Shown here: in pieces, positions 4,656 through 12,419 of the stretch
Position numbering within the stretch: the first letter of the stretch is position 1
How the letters are laid out: every line of letters begins with the position of its first letter
Assembly: GCA_018609755.1 (NCBI GenBank)
Contig: JAHENZ010000226.1
Coordinates: 1-37,723, forward strand
DNA: 37,723 nucleotides
Direction: 5' to 3'
Origin: Salinivenus sp.
GTDB lineage: Bacteria > Bacteroidota > Rhodothermia > Rhodothermales > Salinibacteraceae
Made by a program: the position numbers and the translations under genes
Notes under the pieces: model-generated
What the model was told of the DNA's origin: nothing
What the model saw: the letters and a program-made list of their open reading frames with translations, nothing else
Databases searched by the model: none

Positions 4656-5528
4656 CTATACTGGGATCTCCCCCTTTTCTGATTCGTCCGACGGAGCCTC
4701 AACGGACGCAATGTCAGCTCTCTTGATCGGGGCTCGAAGCATGCCCATCACGCTCTGGTCTTCAGGGGCGTCCCACCCGTGCAGCCCCAACTCGATGGCC
4801 GAGGGATCGTCGCGCAGCCGGAACGACCGCCCGATGCGGTCCCAGAAGGAAAAGAGGGAGCTATAGTTTGAGTCCGTCTCCGGCTGCCAGCGCGAGTGGT
4901 GCACTTTGTGCATGTTGGGCGTCACGATCACCGTCCGGAGCGCCCGGTCCACCCACTCCGGCAGCCCCACATTGGCGTGGTGGAACTGGACTACGGCAAA
5001 CATAACCGTCTCGTAGAGCACCAGCTCCCACAGGTAAATCCCGAACAGAAGAATCACCCCCAGACGGAGCGTCGAGGAAATGGCAATCTCGCCGACGTGG
5101 AAGCGACTGGCCGTCGTTACGTCCATGTTTGGGTCGTTGTGGTGGACCCGGTGGAAGCGCCAGAGGAACGGGATCACGTGGTTGATGCGGTGCCACACGT
5201 ACATCCAGGCGTCGAGCAAGAGCAGCGCGCCGAGGGCGTGTCCCCAGCTTGGAAGGCCGACTGCTCCAAACCAGTGGAGCAGACCGATGACCTGCTGATC
5301 GGCCCAAAGTGCCGCCGCGCCCCAGAGCCCCACGAAGACGACGGAGATCAAACCGGCGTTGAGGCCCCCGAGCAATAGGTTGCGCAGCGCGTGCTTGCCT
5401 CGTTCTTTTGGGGCCTTTTGGAAGTATTCGAAGAACGGATGGGCCGTCTCCCAGAGCATCAGGACCACCAGCCCGACGAGCATGGCGATCGTTTGGGTCT
5501 GCTTGAGGACGTCGAGAAGGGGAGCCAT
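4656..5528 (-). CDS. Sterol desaturase / fatty-acid hydroxylase superfamily protein
   Basis: A 290-residue membrane di-iron enzyme. The eight-histidine signature of the superfamily is present: HRINH, HRVHH, FHHAN and HKVHHS. Four or so hydrophobic segments surround these boxes. The family hydroxylates or desaturates sterols, carotenoids or fatty acids; the substrate here is unknown. An in-frame TTG at 5615 would extend it by 29 residues, but that extension overlaps the 3' end of the Cys-rich peptide gene and contains no family feature, so ATG 5528 is preferred. The leader has an ACGAATCC motif shared with other genes here. It is the last gene of the minus-strand block running from 11829. Confidence 0.85.
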   Translation of the reverse strand: MAPLLDVLKQTQTIAMLVGLVVLMLWETAHPFFEYFQKAPKERGKHALRNLLLGGLNAGLISVVFVGLWGAAALWADQQVIGLLHWFGAVGLPSWGHALGALLLLDAWMYVWHRINHVIPFLWRFHRVHHNDPNMDVTTASRFHVGEIAISSTLRLGVILLFGIYLWELVLYETVMFAVVQFHHANVGLPEWVDRALRTVIVTPNMHKVHHSRWQPETDSNYSSLFSFWDRIGRSFRLRDDPSAIELGLHGWDAPEDQSVMGMLRAPIKRADIASVEAPSDESEKGEIPV

Positions 5529-5602
5529 GAGCGAATGAGGATTCGTTTCAGTTCGGATCTCGTAAGGGTCAAGAAAGTGGGACTGGTCGAGCTCCTGTTC
5601 GG

Positions 5603-5740
5603 TTACCGCCGACAATTACAACAGCCCTTGCAACAGCCGCAGTTGTCACATCGGTTGCTACAACGACACCCGCACTGTTTGCAGGAGCCACTGTACGATC
5701 GAGAGTGTCTGGAGGTATGTCGAGAACAGCAGTGATTCAT
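5603..5740 (-). CDS. Small cysteine-rich peptide (metallothionein-like candidate)
   Basis: A 45-residue reading frame with 13 cysteines, several as CC, CxC and CxxC (GSCKQCGCRC, DNCGCCKGCCNC), ending in Arg-Arg, with a basic His/Ser/Arg-rich front. ATG at 5740 is the first Met next to the Cys-rich part; the frame is open further upstream to 5809. The composition resembles metallothioneins and other thiolate metal-binding peptides, but I recognise no specific family. It sits between the Met-rich cytochrome c gene (stop 5793) and the hydroxylase, all on the same strand. The DNA carries short repeated TGCAACA/GTTGC-like words, so a low-complexity artefact is possible. Expression is not shown by sequence alone. 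Confidence 0.5.
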   Translation of the reverse strand: MNHCCSRHTSRHSRSYSGSCKQCGCRCSNRCDNCGCCKGCCNCRR

Positions 5741-6837: not shown

Positions 6838-7518
6838 TCAGGAAGAATTGGCTCGCTGAACTGTCTTTTCCTCACGCCGAGCGGCCTGAGCAATCGTGTA
6901 CAGCCCGCCGAGCGCCGACTCTTTCGGATCCACGACGCCAAGATCGGCGTGGGCGAGGATCGGTTCCAGTTGATACGTGAGGTCGGAAAACAGAAACCGA
7001 GCAACGGGATTCAGCGCACGGCGGAGGAACGACGGCTCTGTCGCCTCTGGAATGAACTTGTCGTAGATGGAGACACGTCCCTCGGGGGTCAGAACTCGGG
7101 CCGCCTCGGTAGCTACCGCCGTAGGATTCGGTACGACCGATAGAATGAGGTGAAGCAGCACGACGTCGAACGCGTCGTCGTCAAACGGCACGGTTTGGGC
7201 ATCCCCGACCCGGGCCTCCACGTCCATGTCAAGGGCCTCGGCTCGCTCTCGCGTGCGGCGCACCATGGCCGGGGCGGCGTCGAGGGCTGTGATGGACGCC
7301 TCGGCCGGTAGGTATTCGAGATCGGAGCCGGGCCCGGAGCCGAGAATCAGGATGCGCTCGTCTCCGGTGAGGGAGAGCCGCTCGATGGCACGCCTGCGTC
7401 CGTCTTCCATGGGTCGGGCCACCCAGTCGTAGATCGGGGCGTAGAGTTGGTATCGGGTGCGGTTCCACCAGCGCGCAAGGTCGGTCGGGGCGGAAGATTC
7501 TTGGGCATCGTGAGACAT
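6838..7518 (-). CDS. UbiE-like class I SAM methyltransferase
   Basis: A 226-residue methyltransferase. After an N-terminal NRTRYQLYAPIYDWVARP region typical of small-molecule and phospholipid N-methyltransferases come motif I RILILGSGPGSDLEYLP (about residues 50-66), the LDAAPAM acidic loop and the DDAFDVVLLHLILSVVP segment, followed by VLTPEGRVSIYDKF. The frame stays open far upstream, but that part is an antisense shadow of the MFS gene; ATG 7518 gives a compact start 50 bases after the MFS stop. The substrate is unknown. It belongs to the minus-strand block with the MFS transporter and cytochrome c. Confidence 0.85.
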   Translation of the reverse strand: MSHDAQESSAPTDLARWWNRTRYQLYAPIYDWVARPMEDGRRRAIERLSLTGDERILILGSGPGSDLEYLPAEASITALDAAPAMVRRTRERAEALDMDVEARVGDAQTVPFDDDAFDVVLLHLILSVVPNPTAVATEAARVLTPEGRVSIYDKFIPEATEPSFLRRALNPVARFLFSDLTYQLEPILAHADLGVVDPKESALGGLYTIAQAARREEKTVQRANSS

Positions 7519-7568
7519 GGTCGCTGAAGTGCGTTGTGATGGAGTGAAGTGGAAAAGAGGGAGCCGGA

Positions 7569-8852
7569 CTATTCCGGCACGGATTCCGTGGACCGAGGTG
7601 CGGTCACGGACGCGTGCGTTCCAAACTCCGGATGCGTCTCCTCCATCCGGAGGAGCACGTAGGCGTCCGAGACGAGCATCGCGGCGGCCACGCCGTAGAA
7701 GGCGATCTCGATCGAGAAGAGGTCGACGGTGAGTCCAATGAGGACGGCCCCCACCGCGTAGCCGAGGTCCCGCCACATGCGGTAGACGCCCAGGCCGGTC
7801 GAGCGCCAGAGTGGATGGGCCACGTCGCCGGCCACCGAAATCAGGTTCGGATAGTGGAGCGCCATGCCCACGCCCGAGAGCCCGGAGAAGAGGATCCAGA
7901 GGGCGTATCCCTCGACGAGAACCATTCCGAGCACGCCTGCGCCGGCCAGGAGGAGTCCCGCCACGATGGGCGGCTTGCGCCCTACCTGATCCCCGAGGCG
8001 TCCCGTGTACACCTGCAGGAAGTAGGCCCCGCTGTGCACGCCGACGACGACCCCGATCTGGGCGGGGTCGAGGCCCTGCGCGGCGAGAAACAGCGGAAAT
8101 CCGATCCACACGAGCGTGTCGACAAAGTTCTCGACGTGCCCCGCCTGCGCGGCGGCGAAGAGGGTCGGATCTTCGTACGTGGCCCGTCGGACGATGTCCC
8201 AGAACGGAAGGTCGGCGTCGTCCCGATCCTCCCCCGAGGCCCCACCCGCCTCGGCCTTCGCGTAGGGGAGCGTTTCCTCAATCCAGAACACCGCAATGAG
8301 CAGGGCGAGAGCGACGACGCCCATGAGGAAGTAGAACGGCTCCGGGCGAAGGCTGTACGACGCGGCAATCACGCCGGTGAGCCACGCCCCAACGGCCACC
8401 CCGCCGTAGCCGAAGGCCTCGTCGATGCCCGCCGCCAGCCCCCGCTCGCTCGGCCCGGCCAGCTCGATCTTCGAAATCATGCTCATGCTCCACGCCACGC
8501 CCTGGTTGACGCCGAGCAGGACGTTGCCGACGGCAACCCACCCCCAGCTCGGCGCAAAAATCAGGAGAAAGGGAATCGGGACGGCCGACAGCCAGCCGGC
8601 GATGAGAACGGGCTTTCGCCCGTAGGCGTCTGCCCACTTCCCCGAGTACAGGTTGAGAAGGGCCTTCACCAGACCGAAGCTCACGACGAACGAGCCAATC
8701 ACGACCATCGACTCGACGCCGAAGGTCTCGTCCGCCATCAGCGGGACGACGGTGCGTTCGGTGCCCATCGTGAGCCCGACGGCGAAAACCGTGAAAACCT
8801 GGAGGCTGAACTGTTTCCAGTTTTCTCGAATGCCTTGCGTTGGATGTTGCAT
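7569..8852 (-). CDS. MFS transporter
   Basis: A 427-residue major facilitator with about 12 hydrophobic segments in two halves. Motif A is GKWADAYGRKP between TM2 and TM3, and its degenerate repeat GRLGDQVGRKP starts the second half. A charged loop near residues 195-215 separates the halves. The substrate cannot be read from sequence; drug or metabolite efflux is usual for the family. Because it follows the rhodanese-MBL gene in the same unit, export of a sulfur compound or a thiol conjugate is a reasonable guess. Its leader holds a CACTGAACACGAATCATC motif similar to those before the genes at 10902 and 5528. Confidence 0.85.
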   Translation of the reverse strand: MQHPTQGIRENWKQFSLQVFTVFAVGLTMGTERTVVPLMADETFGVESMVVIGSFVVSFGLVKALLNLYSGKWADAYGRKPVLIAGWLSAVPIPFLLIFAPSWGWVAVGNVLLGVNQGVAWSMSMISKIELAGPSERGLAAGIDEAFGYGGVAVGAWLTGVIAASYSLRPEPFYFLMGVVALALLIAVFWIEETLPYAKAEAGGASGEDRDDADLPFWDIVRRATYEDPTLFAAAQAGHVENFVDTLVWIGFPLFLAAQGLDPAQIGVVVGVHSGAYFLQVYTGRLGDQVGRKPPIVAGLLLAGAGVLGMVLVEGYALWILFSGLSGVGMALHYPNLISVAGDVAHPLWRSTGLGVYRMWRDLGYAVGAVLIGLTVDLFSIEIAFYGVAAAMLVSDAYVLLRMEETHPEFGTHASVTAPRSTESVPE

Positions 8853-8915: not shown

Positions 8916-9020
8916 CTACTCCCGCCGGTCGTCGGGGTCAATCCAGCGGGCGAGCGACCGCCGAGCCGACGGGGAAAACCAGAGGGCAACGAGGGCGAGA
9001 ATGAGAAGAAGGGTCCACAT
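8916..9020 (-). CDS. Predicted 34-residue single-span membrane peptide
   Basis: A short frame starting at ATG 9020: MWTLLLILALVALWF forms one transmembrane helix, followed by a basic and then acidic tail (SARRSLARWIDPDDRRE). It lies between the rhodanese-MBL gene (stop 9143) and the MFS gene (start 8852) on the same strand. The size and shape resemble small accessory membrane peptides of transporters. No named family is recognised. A longer start at 9116 is possible but its extra residues look unstructured. Confidence 0.45.
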   Translation of the reverse strand: MWTLLLILALVALWFSPSARRSLARWIDPDDRRE

Positions 9021-9142: not shown

Positions 9143-10267
9143 TTATCCCACGGCGCAGCGATTGCCCCCGGCTTCGAGGTCGACGATCGTCTCGTCATCC
9201 GGCCAATCGCCGGTCTCGTTGCGGGCAATGACGGTCTCGTGATTCGGCGGCGTGGGCGGCACACGTTCGGTCACGGTGTCTACGAACCGATCCTCCGACC
9301 ACTGCAGCGCCTCAACCTGACGTTTGACGTCCCCCATCGGCGCGCCGACAACCTCCCCGTCGAACGGTACTGGCTCGGACGCGTGACCAGGCAACACTGT
9401 GATCTCGTCCGAAAGCTGAGCCAATCGTTGAAGCGAGGAGTAGAGCCGGCGGGCCTTGCGTCGTCCCTCCTCCGGACCAGCGTCTAGATCCGGGCGCCCC
9501 ACCCCGTTCAGAAACAGCGTGTCCCCCGTAAAGAGTGCGTTCTCGCCAAGCCGATAGGACGTGCTTTCCGGTGTGTGTCCCGGGGTGTGCACAGCCCTAA
9601 GCATCGCATCACCCACCGCGACCTCGTCCCCGTCGTCGAGCGACCGGTGGGCAAAGGACACGCGATCCTGGGTCGGAAGATAAAGGGAGGCCCCCGTGGC
9701 CTCAGAAAGGCGGCGGGCACGCGAGAGGTGGTCGGCGTGGACGTGCGTATCGAGCACGGCCGTGATCGTCCAGCCCCGGTCCGACGCCTGCTCTTCGTAA
9801 ACCTCCGGCGAAAGTGCCGGGTCAATCACGAGCGCCTCCTCTCCGCTCCCGATGAGGTACGAGAGACACCCCTTCCCCGTCCGGCGAAGCTGGACAATCT
9901 CGGCATCAGGAACGTACCGTGTGGCAGCATTCCAGGCAACGGTCCAGGCCCGCAGCCCGCCCTGTAGTGAATACGCTTCTACCCCCTGCTCACGGAGCCG
10001 ACGCGCAGCCGTTCGACTCGTCTTGCCCGCCCCGCAGACCGTGACGACAGGGCCGTCCTCCGGTATCGCACGGTCGTCGAATACGTCCTCTCGTCCCGCC
10101 TTCAGGGCGTGGTACCCACCCACGTGACGGCTCCCCGGTACGTGCCAGTCCTCAAAATCGTCGTGGGGCCGCACGTCGAGCACCCCGACGGACGTGCCCT
10201 TCGCAAGTGCATTTCGAAGTTCGTCGACTGTCACCTCCGGAACGTCTGTGGTTTGTGCATCGGTCAT
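9143..10267 (-). CDS. Rhodanese - MBL-fold persulfide-dioxygenase-like fusion protein
   Basis: A 374-residue two-domain cytoplasmic enzyme. Residues about 10-112 are a rhodanese domain with the catalytic Cys78 in the loop VCGAGKTSR. Residues about 120-340 are a metallo-beta-lactamase fold with THVHADH (His175, His177, Asp179, His180), HTPGHT (His227), GDTLF (Asp249) and LPGH (His295), as in ETHE1-type persulfide dioxygenases and glyoxalase II relatives. The expected role is handling sulfane sulfur: transfer by the rhodanese and oxidation of persulfide to sulfite. The rhodanese is N-terminal, the reverse of several described bacterial persulfide dioxygenase-rhodanese fusions. From memory, haloarchaea encode proteins of this layout ending in a similar NRCAV tail, which would fit exchange among halophiles. 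Confidence 0.88.
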   Translation of the reverse strand: MTDAQTTDVPEVTVDELRNALAKGTSVGVLDVRPHDDFEDWHVPGSRHVGGYHALKAGREDVFDDRAIPEDGPVVTVCGAGKTSRTAARRLREQGVEAYSLQGGLRAWTVAWNAATRYVPDAEIVQLRRTGKGCLSYLIGSGEEALVIDPALSPEVYEEQASDRGWTITAVLDTHVHADHLSRARRLSEATGASLYLPTQDRVSFAHRSLDDGDEVAVGDAMLRAVHTPGHTPESTSYRLGENALFTGDTLFLNGVGRPDLDAGPEEGRRKARRLYSSLQRLAQLSDEITVLPGHASEPVPFDGEVVGAPMGDVKRQVEALQWSEDRFVDTVTERVPPTPPNHETVIARNETGDWPDDETIVDLEAGGNRCAVG

Positions 10268-10350: not shown

Positions 10351-10902
10351 TCAACGGCCAAAGCTCCAGCCGATGCCGACAGTCCCCCACGGCCCGAGCG
10401 GAGTGGACTCAAAGGTGTCCCCACCAATCGAAATCGATTCCCCGTTCAGGGTGTACGAGAGCCCGACCACCGGACTCACGTAGAGGTTGCCGAGGCCTAT
10501 GTACCACTGATATCCTCCACGCACCCCAGCGGAATACCGTAGGTGCCTTTCGCTCGTCTGACTGGACCGATGGGTCACGTCGAGTCGAACGATGCCGACT
10601 TCCGGTCCGACGTAAAAGCCCCCGGGGCTCTCTCCGAAAAAGCGTTCGAAATGAAGTTCGGCCCCGAAAGGAGAAGCGCTGAAGCGGTCATTCCCGTGAA
10701 GAGACCTCGGAATTTCAAGGCTGAAGACTTCGACCTCGTACTTCCATGCCCCCGCCTGAACGGCTACGTGGCCGCCGGCGCCGCCGAAGGTGTACGCGAG
10801 CGGTTCGACCTCAAGATCGACGTGATGCGCCTCCGGTTGGGCACTGGTCGGAACTGCGCAAACAAAGAGAATGATCGCGAGAAATGAAGAACGAAATCTC
10901 AT
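10351..10902 (-). CDS. Small outer-membrane beta-barrel protein
   Basis: A 183-residue protein with a cleavable signal peptide (hydrophobic residues 5-18, cleavage probably after TSA in VPTSAQ). The rest shows alternating hydrophobic and polar strands rich in Gly, Tyr and Trp (GGFYVGPEVGIVRLDV, GGYQWYIGLGNLYVSPVVGL) and ends near an aromatic residue (GWSFGR). This is the OmpW/OmpA-like barrel style, with eight strands likely. No specific substrate can be named. It is the first gene after the second putative ArsR-site at about 11014-11033, so it may head the sulfur operon as an outer-membrane component. Confidence 0.7.
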   Translation of the reverse strand: MRFRSSFLAIILFVCAVPTSAQPEAHHVDLEVEPLAYTFGGAGGHVAVQAGAWKYEVEVFSLEIPRSLHGNDRFSASPFGAELHFERFFGESPGGFYVGPEVGIVRLDVTHRSSQTSERHLRYSAGVRGGYQWYIGLGNLYVSPVVGLSYTLNGESISIGGDTFESTPLGPWGTVGIGWSFGR

Positions 10903-10996: not shown

Positions 10997-11025
10997 GTTA
11001 TCTTTTACGGTTATCAATTGAACAA
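10997..11025 (-). promoter_or_regulatory. Weak candidate promoter for the 10902 gene block
   Basis: On the minus strand TTGTTC (11025-11020) and GATAAC (11002-10997) are separated by exactly 17 bases. The match to the sigma70 consensus is modest (3/6 and 4/6). The -35 element would lie inside the CAATTGAA repeat described next, as expected for a repressor-controlled promoter. The resulting leader would be about 90 bases. Confidence 0.3.
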
Positions 11026-11033
11026 TTGAATAT
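11014..11033. promoter_or_regulatory. Putative ArsR-rhodanese operator 2
   Basis: TCAATTG (11014-11020) and CAATTGA (11023-11029) form a perfect inverted repeat around AA; read another way, CAATTGAA is directly repeated in tandem (11015-11022 and 11023-11030). The 11-mer CAATTGAATAT at 11023-11033 recurs exactly at 11842-11852, next to the regulator gene. A second perfect palindrome, GAATATATTC, overlaps at 11028-11037. It is in the 234-base gap upstream of the beta-barrel gene. Confidence 0.6.
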
Positions 11034-11136
11034 ATTCGACACGTGTCCTCCCTAAGATCTTCCTTCCGATACGGACTTCAGCTGGCCGTAGAGGAGATTT
11101 CTAGGTCAACTGCTCAACAGTCGCTCTCCCTCACTC

Positions 11137-11829
11137 CTAAGAAGTACCGCCAGGGGTAGTGCCGCTTTTCACCGGTCGTCCCTCGTCGATCCAGTCGGGA
11201 AGCCCCTCCTGGAGACGACGAGCCGTGTGCCCCTCCTCTCGCAGCCGTCGCACCGCATCGTCGGAGTAGACGCAGTACGGCCCCCGACAGTAAGCCACGA
11301 TTTCCTGGTCGTCCGGCAGCTCATCTAGATGCTCCTCGATTTGATCGATCGGAATCGAGCGAGCGCCCGGAATGTGACCTGTCTGGTACTCTGCCTCGGG
11401 ACGAACGTCCAGAACGAGTACGTCATCCGTCTCCAGGCGCACTTCCAGCTCCTCCGGCGACAAGGCCTCCATTTGCTGCCGATCCGACAAGTACCGCTGC
11501 ACTGTTTCCTCTACCTCTGCCAGACGGGATTCTGCTAGCGTACGAACGGCCCGCCATGCGCGGTAGACCTCCGGCCCAGCGAGCATGTAATAGGCACGCG
11601 TTCCCTCCTTTCGACGGCGCACAAGGCGCTCCCCTTTCAGCACCTGAAGGTGGCGGGAGGTGTTGGCCACGGACATCTCCGTCTCTTCTGCCAGCTCGTC
11701 AACCGTGCGCTCCCGCTGCGCCAGCAGGTCAATGAGTTCCAGCCGCGACGCGCTGGAAAAGGCCTTCCCAATGCGGGAAAACTGATCGTAAATTTCGTCC
11801 TTGAAGGCGCGCTTTCGGCTATTTTCCAT
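11137..11829 (-). CDS. ArsR-family winged-helix regulator with C-terminal rhodanese domain
   Basis: A 230-residue fusion. Residues about 15-95 form an ArsR winged helix (AFSSASRLELIDLL, recognition helix MSVANTSRHLQVLKGERLV). Residues about 122-220 form a rhodanese domain with the active loop A-Y-C-R-G-P-Y-C, giving the catalytic Cys181 plus Cys186. The DNA-binding domain has no cysteine, so it lacks the Cys pair of BigR/SqrR-type persulfide sensors; sensing could instead run through the rhodanese cysteines, which is inference. ArsR proteins usually repress and are released by their ligand. A palindrome abuts its start codon, suggesting autoregulation. It lies upstream of the persulfide-related block on the same strand. 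Confidence 0.9.
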   Translation of the reverse strand: MENSRKRAFKDEIYDQFSRIGKAFSSASRLELIDLLAQRERTVDELAEETEMSVANTSRHLQVLKGERLVRRRKEGTRAYYMLAGPEVYRAWRAVRTLAESRLAEVEETVQRYLSDRQQMEALSPEELEVRLETDDVLVLDVRPEAEYQTGHIPGARSIPIDQIEEHLDELPDDQEIVAYCRGPYCVYSDDAVRRLREEGHTARRLQEGLPDWIDEGRPVKSGTTPGGTS

Positions 11830-11852
11830 TATTCAATTAGTCAATTGAATAT
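11830..11852. promoter_or_regulatory. Putative ArsR-rhodanese operator 1 (autoregulatory)
   Basis: TATTCAATT (11830-11838) and AATTGAATA (11843-11851) form a perfect 9-bp inverted repeat with a 4-base centre. It begins immediately upstream of the regulator's ATG at 11829, so a bound repressor would cover the promoter/start region and the mRNA leader must be very short. The right arm contains CAATTGAATAT (11842-11852), identical to the core of the site at 11023-11033. Confidence 0.65.
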
Positions 11853-11941: not shown

Positions 11942-12364
11942 TTGCCACAGAATGACTGGACTCACGGTCTTGTGAACCGCTCCCCTTGCCCTACACTCAT
12001 TAATACCAGAGAGTCAGTTCCACTTTCGTGGACCGGCGATGCAGCCCACCTCACCAGTCCCGTGGGCGGGCAAGGAATGAATCTAGGGTTTCGAGACGCC
12101 GCTGGCCTAGTGAGCGCCCTGGACCGGGCCCTTGACCAGGGCACCTCGACGCCCCTGTGGAGGTACGCTTCCGAGCGACGGGACGCAATTGAGACAAGAG
12201 CTGTTTTGGCCACCGACCGGCTCACCCAATTCCTCCTGGCTCGCCGGGGAACCGTTCTCGTGCCGTTTCTACGTCTCTTTGGGCTTACGCTCAAACTTCA
12301 ACCGCTTCGCCACGCCATCATGCGACGGATGGCCATGCTGGATGAGCCCTCTCGGCGCCGGTAG
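11942..12364 (+). pseudogene. Truncated FAD-dependent monooxygenase remnant
   Basis: The frame encodes a C-terminal fragment of a UbiH/PHBH-type flavin monooxygenase. The diagnostic segment is GDAAHLTSPVGGQGMNLG, the second FAD-binding motif (GD motif), followed by FRDAAGLVSALDRAL and a helical tail. Full-length proteins have about 280 residues before this motif, including the N-terminal GxGxxG; here only about 30 unrelated-looking residues precede it, so the 5' part is deleted. Homology starts around base 12030. It lies between the ArsR-rhodanese gene and a 46-base ArsR-gene remnant, in a visibly decayed patch. Confidence 0.7.
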
Positions 12365-12373
12365 CCTTTAGTG

Positions 12374-12419
12374 CGGCCCGCCATGGGCGGTAGACTTCCG
12401 GCCCAGCCAGCATTTAATA
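12374..12419 (-). pseudogene. 46-base remnant of an ArsR-type regulator gene
   Basis: These 46 bases match 11547-11592, inside the ArsR-rhodanese gene, at 42 of 46 positions in the same orientation. The parent segment encodes YYMLAGPEVYRAWRA at the end of the winged helix. In the copy the frame reads Y-stop-M-L-A-G-P-E-V-Y-R-P-W-R-A, so it is broken. Similarity stops abruptly at both ends. It is either a leftover of a second ArsR paralogue that once neighboured the monooxygenase, or a rearrangement product. Confidence 0.7.

Follow-up and report, generated by a model that had tools for sequence, protein, structure and literature searches.

The window analysed here, a stretch of 37,723 nucleotides of Salinivenus sp. 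(contig JAHENZ010000226.1), carries a gene for an ArsR-type regulator fused to a rhodanese domain, two palindromic sites and several neighbouring genes on the minus strand. The features considered are the following:

11831..11850, no strand: putative operator 2, ATTCAATTAGTCAATTGAAT, 12/12 to the family consensus, position weight matrix (PWM) score 33.0
11137..11829, minus strand: ArsR-rhodanese regulator, ArsR-type winged helix-turn-helix (HTH, about residues 1-103) with a rhodanese domain (124-215) fused to it
11012..11031, no strand: putative operator 1, TATCAATTGAACAATTGAAT, 10/12 to the consensus, PWM score 22.5
10351..10902, minus strand: predicted secreted beta-rich protein, possibly of the outer membrane, 183 aa, no named family
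9143..10267, minus strand: rhodanese-MBL fusion, its MBL half aligning to persulfide dioxygenase (PDO) and CstB-type enzymes
7569..8852, minus strand: MFS transporter; no other partner of the regulator is conserved as widely
6838..7521, minus strand: class I methyltransferase, start uncertain since the MFS gene is overlapped by a longer listed ORF; gene order shared with the relative G009
4656..5615, minus strand: fatty-acid-hydroxylase family protein, with homologs beside the regulator or in its cluster

The first-pass annotation had noticed an 11-mer, CAATTGAATAT, in two places, and exact matches are indeed present on the plus strand at 11023-11033 and 11842-11852. The 7+7 and 9+9 bp palindromes described around them are both real: site 1 reads TCAATTG-AA-CAATTGA (7-2-7, 11014-11029) and site 2 TATTCAATT-AGTC-AATTGAATA (9-4-9, 11830-11851). 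The two palindromes are one element in the same register, TCAATTGnnCAATTGA matching site 1 (11014-11029) without mismatch and site 2 (11833-11848) with one mismatch. The 11-mer is a half-site plus flank, that is, one arm of a longer dyad, and the functional unit is likely to be the 20-bp dyad ATTCAA-N8-TTGAAT with the core TCAA-N8-TTGA. The two sites do share the 11-base core, but the true motif is the family-wide dyad and is not specific to this genome. Operator 2 is found 1 base upstream of the start codon (ATG) of the regulator, and operator 1, which contains the perfect TCAATTG-N2-CAATTGA core, is about 110 bases upstream of the minus-strand gene starting at 10902. As had been claimed, both sites are intergenic, precede minus-strand genes and lie in AT-rich DNA (43-45% GC, versus 60% for the window).

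The gene of the secreted protein is the first one behind operator 1, and its ortholog in G009 also stands behind an operator. The rhodanese-MBL protein keeps the THVHADH, HTPGHT, GD, GRPD and GH motifs, which comprise the metal ligands of the MBL/PDO fold, and is predicted to be PDO-like; no viral relatives of it were found. Since its gene was not found in any of the 40 relatives searched, it seems to have joined a regulator-MFS core recently. The proposed link of the repressor to the rhodanese-MBL gene and its neighbours therefore needs rewording: a local regulon stands, but directly behind site 1 comes the gene of the secreted protein, and among the cargo the MFS gene is conserved best, while MBL or rhodanese-MBL genes do adjoin the regulator in many other phyla. 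The gap between the rhodanese-MBL and MFS genes is 290 bp, thus the operon may not extend to the latter. Between these two genes a possible 34-aa membrane peptide, MWTLLLILALVALWFSPSARRSLARWIDPDDRRE, is encoded on the minus strand at 8916-9020.

Among 52 loci of the regulator the cargo included MFS genes at 19 (and also in the window, for which the ORF caller had reported an overlapping frame instead), MBL or rhodanese-MBL at 15, SQR-like flavoproteins at 10, RND pumps at 9, DsrE/TusD-like proteins at 8, and fatty-acid hydroxylases and cysteine desulfurases at 5 each, MFS plus MBL being the commonest cargo. Hydroxylase homologs were present at a locus from Verrucomicrobia (L064) and also at L161, L169 and L039. 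No close type-III SQR was found in the window genome. The order regulator, rhodanese-MBL, MFS recurs in a Bacteroidetes genome (L074) and in Ktedonosporobacter (L069), in the latter with a cysteine desulfurase gene inserted after the regulator. Seven members of one lineage (L162, L164, L171, L172, L175, L178, L179) have the regulator and operator before a TolC-MFP-RND efflux operon; since no obvious sulfur gene accompanies the pump there, the inducer may not be limited to sulfane sulfur.

Occurrence of the dyad in the genome, its relatives and the family

The 11-mer occurs exactly twice in the whole genome (5,017,196 bases) and its reversed control pattern not at all. With at most one mismatch, TCAATTGnnCAATTGA was found genome-wide only at these two sites, and five others have two mismatches. 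About 0.26 sites per genome would be expected by chance, as scaled from those five, against two seen 819 bp apart; a chance repeat is ruled out by these genome-wide counts. Frequent occurrence in unrelated places, which had been named as grounds for giving up the proposal, was looked for throughout the genome and did not appear. The weaker genome matches examined with the matrix, which comprise part of the 2-mismatch matches to the dyad consensus, score about 11 or less, compared with 33.0 and 22.5 for the two sites, and most of them overlap open reading frames. Since the other candidate sites examined score far lower, the regulon looks local, and a regulon distributed across the window genome is disfavoured.

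The suggested palindrome scan of this genome and of its Salinibacteraceae relatives gave sites with at most one mismatch only at this locus, and the ortholog loci keep the dyad. Orthologs of the regulator are present in G009, G012 and G014 (83%, 76% and 72% identity), where the dyad is right at the regulator start codon and sites with at most one mismatch occur only at the regulator locus; no such site was found in seven relatives without an intact regulator. G009 resembles the window in having a second site, placed ahead of the MFS gene and of the counterpart of the 10902 gene, and in G012 and G014 the MFS gene directly follows the regulator with a single operator location. In G013 (L039, 3742-4089) a truncated regulator, of which the C-terminal rhodanese part is left, stands behind a degenerate operator (PWM 17.1) and ahead of hydroxylase and MFS genes; it is possible that this locus is a decaying copy of the system. 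Distant ArsR-rhodanese-like homologs from the same order (G027, G060, G066) were set aside as a separate branch, since they are without the motif, miss one or both loop cysteines and have other gene contexts.

Bacterial genomes were scanned with an alignment of the regulator, which gave 26 loci from many phyla, and further members came from plasmid records. Upstream of these genes the same 20-bp dyad, ATTCAA-N8-TTGAAT, was read: in 32 family members it was perfect in 15 and reached at least 11/12 in 21, whereas 12/12 and 11/12 were obtained in 0.02% and 0.2%, respectively, of dinucleotide shuffles of the same stretches. Since the consensus had been read off the original sequences, it was retested on 20 members from other genera of the phylum that had not been used in its derivation; all 20 reached at least 11/12 and 16 were perfect. 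Among 30 control ArsR loci taken from a PF01022 search none reached 11/12 (0/27 when L136, L150 and L157 are left out, whose open frames exceed 500 aa and whose true start may lie outside the scanned stretch). MFS orthologs in genomes without the regulator had no operator either. The dyad is not universal in the family, as its exact form is absent in Rubrobacter (L090), Bacillus (L077), Rhodococcus and Streptomyces members. Two Rhodococcus loci (L196, L200) have a different dyad, TTCCAAAGATGATTGGA (TTCCAA...TTGGA), at the same position, which suggests an operator switch in Actinomycetota. An ArsR-rhodanese gene with 49% identity is also present on a Salinibacter ruber plasmid (L088, 1-8211); the dyad at the start codon is weak there (9/12), and genes for iron transport and thioredoxin lie nearby.

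The matrix was built solely from sites upstream of regulators, and the sites of cargo genes did not enter it. Strong second sites were found before the MBL gene in Gemmatimonadetes (L065) and the MFS gene in Thiothrix (L091), and a strong site before a thioredoxin gene in Limosilactobacillus (L086). In Deinococcus (L089) the only operator heads an MBL-MFS-regulator operon and the regulator is without a site of its own. Since cargo genes are preceded by sites in unrelated phyla, the layout of the window, in which the regulator and the neighbouring operon have a site each, is a recurring one. The dyad ATTCAA-N8-TTGAAT is thus very probably the operator of the ArsR-rhodanese family, and on this comparative evidence we hold with high confidence that the two window sites would serve as operators of the regulator. 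The earlier proposal that they act in this way and define a local regulon is supported to that extent.

The regulator and its candidate signal

The regulator belongs to the ArsR winged HTH proteins by its scores against PF01022 (46.1 bits, cut-off 22) and NF033788 (72.6 bits, cut-off 55). Its AlphaFold model, for which four plasmid-record rows were left out of the input, has a mean pLDDT of 92.5 and two domains, the halves matching the ArsR winged HTH and rhodanese folds; the model also matches 3gw2, CzrA and SmtB. With an HTH joined to a rhodanese that bears a YCRGxxC loop, the window protein fits the definition of the family. The active-site loop reads Y180-C-R-G-P-Y-C186, and C181 and C186 are the only cysteines of the protein. 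Residues 1-180 hold none, in agreement with the earlier remark that the HTH part lacks cysteine. Among 52 members the loop follows the motif YCRGxxC, Cys186 being present in all 52 and Cys181 in 51 (in L070 Ser replaces Cys181), while no column of the HTH holds more than 6 cysteines, i.e. there is no conserved HTH cysteine. The CxC or other metal-ligand HTH cysteines of metal- and arsenite-responsive ArsR proteins were not found, a comparison that concerns cysteines and not metal sites made of His/Asp only.

On the most economical reading, sulfane sulfur acts as the signal and would be sensed by the rhodanese loop; we regard this as moderately likely on the grounds of domain identity, residue conservation and gene context. 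Sensing by the rhodanese had been argued from the lack of HTH cysteines; the conservation of the loop cysteines, together with the SQR-like, DsrE and cysteine desulfurase neighbours at other loci, is the stronger argument.

The sites could be true operators and the CRGxxC dithiol could still sense another thiol-reactive agent, such as hypochlorite, an electrophile, arsenite or another metal or metalloid, or NO, the MFS protein then being a drug or metalloid pump. Such an inducer would fit the lineage in which the operator precedes RND efflux operons, and also the automatic annotation of the regulator as a metalloregulator, the weak resemblance of the MFS protein to multidrug families, and the presence of merB close to the Rubrobacter member and of copper genes close to the Deinococcus one. 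However, the domain added to the HTH is a rhodanese whose catalytic cysteine is intact, genes of PDO-like MBL, SQR-like, DsrE and cysteine desulfurase proteins recur beside the regulator, and none of the recurrent neighbours belongs to an arsenic operon, so that we consider a different inducer unlikely.

The rhodanese might instead be a sulfurtransferase that feeds the MBL enzyme, the HTH serving as an anchor or in autoregulation and induction following another route. In favour of this, the catalytic Cys181 and its RG loop are kept and persulfide-handling enzymes adjoin. A second cysteine of the Cys186 type is unnecessary for ordinary rhodanese turnover. Since Cys186 (52/52) is dispensable in this sense and nevertheless as conserved as the catalytic residue (51/52), a dithiol switch is favoured, and the sulfurtransferase reading appears quite improbable. 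It is very improbable that the palindromes are sites of a different regulator or mere promoter elements that happen to be AT-rich: ArsR-type operators are generally AT-rich dyads near promoters and the two sites probably overlap promoters, but the dyad, always 20 bp long, accompanies regulators of this class in different phyla, and neither the 30 other ArsR loci nor the MFS orthologs without regulator are preceded by it. A link to defence systems was also dropped, the PADLOC matches being due to HTH similarity only.

Comparison with known systems and proposed mechanism

The closest solved HTH is that of Rv0324/Mb0332 (PDB 2kko, 3gw2), 43-44% identical over residues 1-100 only; Mb0332 corresponds to Rv0324 in M. 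bovis. Rv0324 has been described as having a part in bedaquiline tolerance (PMC9480834), and no operator or sulfur ligand for it was found in the open-access literature examined. In the SqrR/BigR/HlyU group (SSN cluster 4) a sulfur-bridge switch between two cysteines, which releases the DNA, has been proposed (PMC9774590, PMC10509353), and the defining feature of these persulfide sensors is that helices alpha2 and alpha5 of the HTH hold a pair of cysteines (PMC10509353). The window regulator shares with them the ArsR winged HTH and the adjoining rhodanese, persulfide dioxygenase and sulfur transport genes (PMC9774590, PMC10509353), but it has no HTH cysteine and its pair sits in the fused rhodanese loop. 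Since the defining pair is missing, the regulator falls outside the group, in line with its score against the BigR model NF040642 (29.9 bits, cut-off 155). It probably works like SqrR/BigR, although here the pair has its place in the enzyme domain fused to the HTH.

The BigR-Blh operon of Xylella and Agrobacterium, in which an ArsR repressor controls a bifunctional sulfurtransferase/sulfur dioxygenase (PMC5823870), resembles the locus in that an ArsR-type regulator gene has a rhodanese/MBL fusion as predicted target. Here, in contrast, the fusion is far below the cut-off of the Blh family NF040641 (64.9 versus 625 bits), its order is rhodanese-MBL and the transporter is of the MFS type. CstB and the persulfide dioxygenase-rhodanese fusions (PDB 3r2u, 3tp9, 5ve3) likewise have MBL and rhodanese on one chain and the MBL motifs kept, but in the window protein the order is reversed, with the rhodanese first. 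RexT, a peroxide-sensing ArsR protein, has the AT-rich dyad ATTCG-N15-CGAAT (PMC8960804); the ATTC/GAAT ends and the dithiol switch, the latter as proposed for the window regulator, are alike, whereas half-site and spacing differ, and the RexT cysteines are in the HTH domain and sense H2O2. No description of ArsR-rhodanese regulators was found in the open-access literature, a coverage that leaves out most subscription journals.

The model suggested builds on the observed site positions and their rarity, the conservation of the dyad in the family and its specificity for the regulator class, the cysteine conservation and the gene context. The reduced regulator dimer would bind the 20-bp dyad at its own start codon, which would amount to autorepression, and also the promoter of the neighbouring operon, where we infer that it blocks transcription and does not activate it. 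This operon would comprise the genes of the secreted protein, the rhodanese-MBL and MFS proteins and probably the methyltransferase and the hydroxylase. On accumulation of persulfide or polysulfide, the presumed ligand, the catalytic Cys181 would take up the sulfane sulfur and Cys186, which follows in this loop at a distance of five residues, would capture it as a disulfide or polysulfide; such a sulfur bridge may lower DNA affinity and thereby free the operon. The rhodanese-MBL protein would then oxidise the persulfide and the MFS pump may export a product. We judge it fairly probable that the whole model holds, i.e. that the sites are operators and that persulfide or polysulfide sensed by the rhodanese loop frees the operon.

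The family members are annotated as metalloregulators, yet their gene context is that of sulfur. We see an even chance that they form a widespread further ArsR route to the sensing of reactive sulfur, in which the catalytic and the second loop cysteine of a fused rhodanese trap sulfane sulfur, with one operator across about 10 phyla and a changing cargo (persulfide dioxygenase-like MBL, SQR, DsrE, MFS, RND pump). It would be a clean case in which an enzyme domain may have turned into the sensor of its own substrate. With the operator defined, regulons of ArsR-rhodanese proteins can be predicted in many genomes, the ligand can be tested with short DNA duplexes, and the MFS transporter and MBL enzymes that accompany the regulator, so far without names, can be assigned a function.

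A 46-bp stretch at 12374-12419 is 91% identical to 11547-11592 inside the regulator gene. It is what is left of a duplication that copied part of the regulator, and a truncated FAD-monooxygenase ORF (11942-12364) lies next to it.
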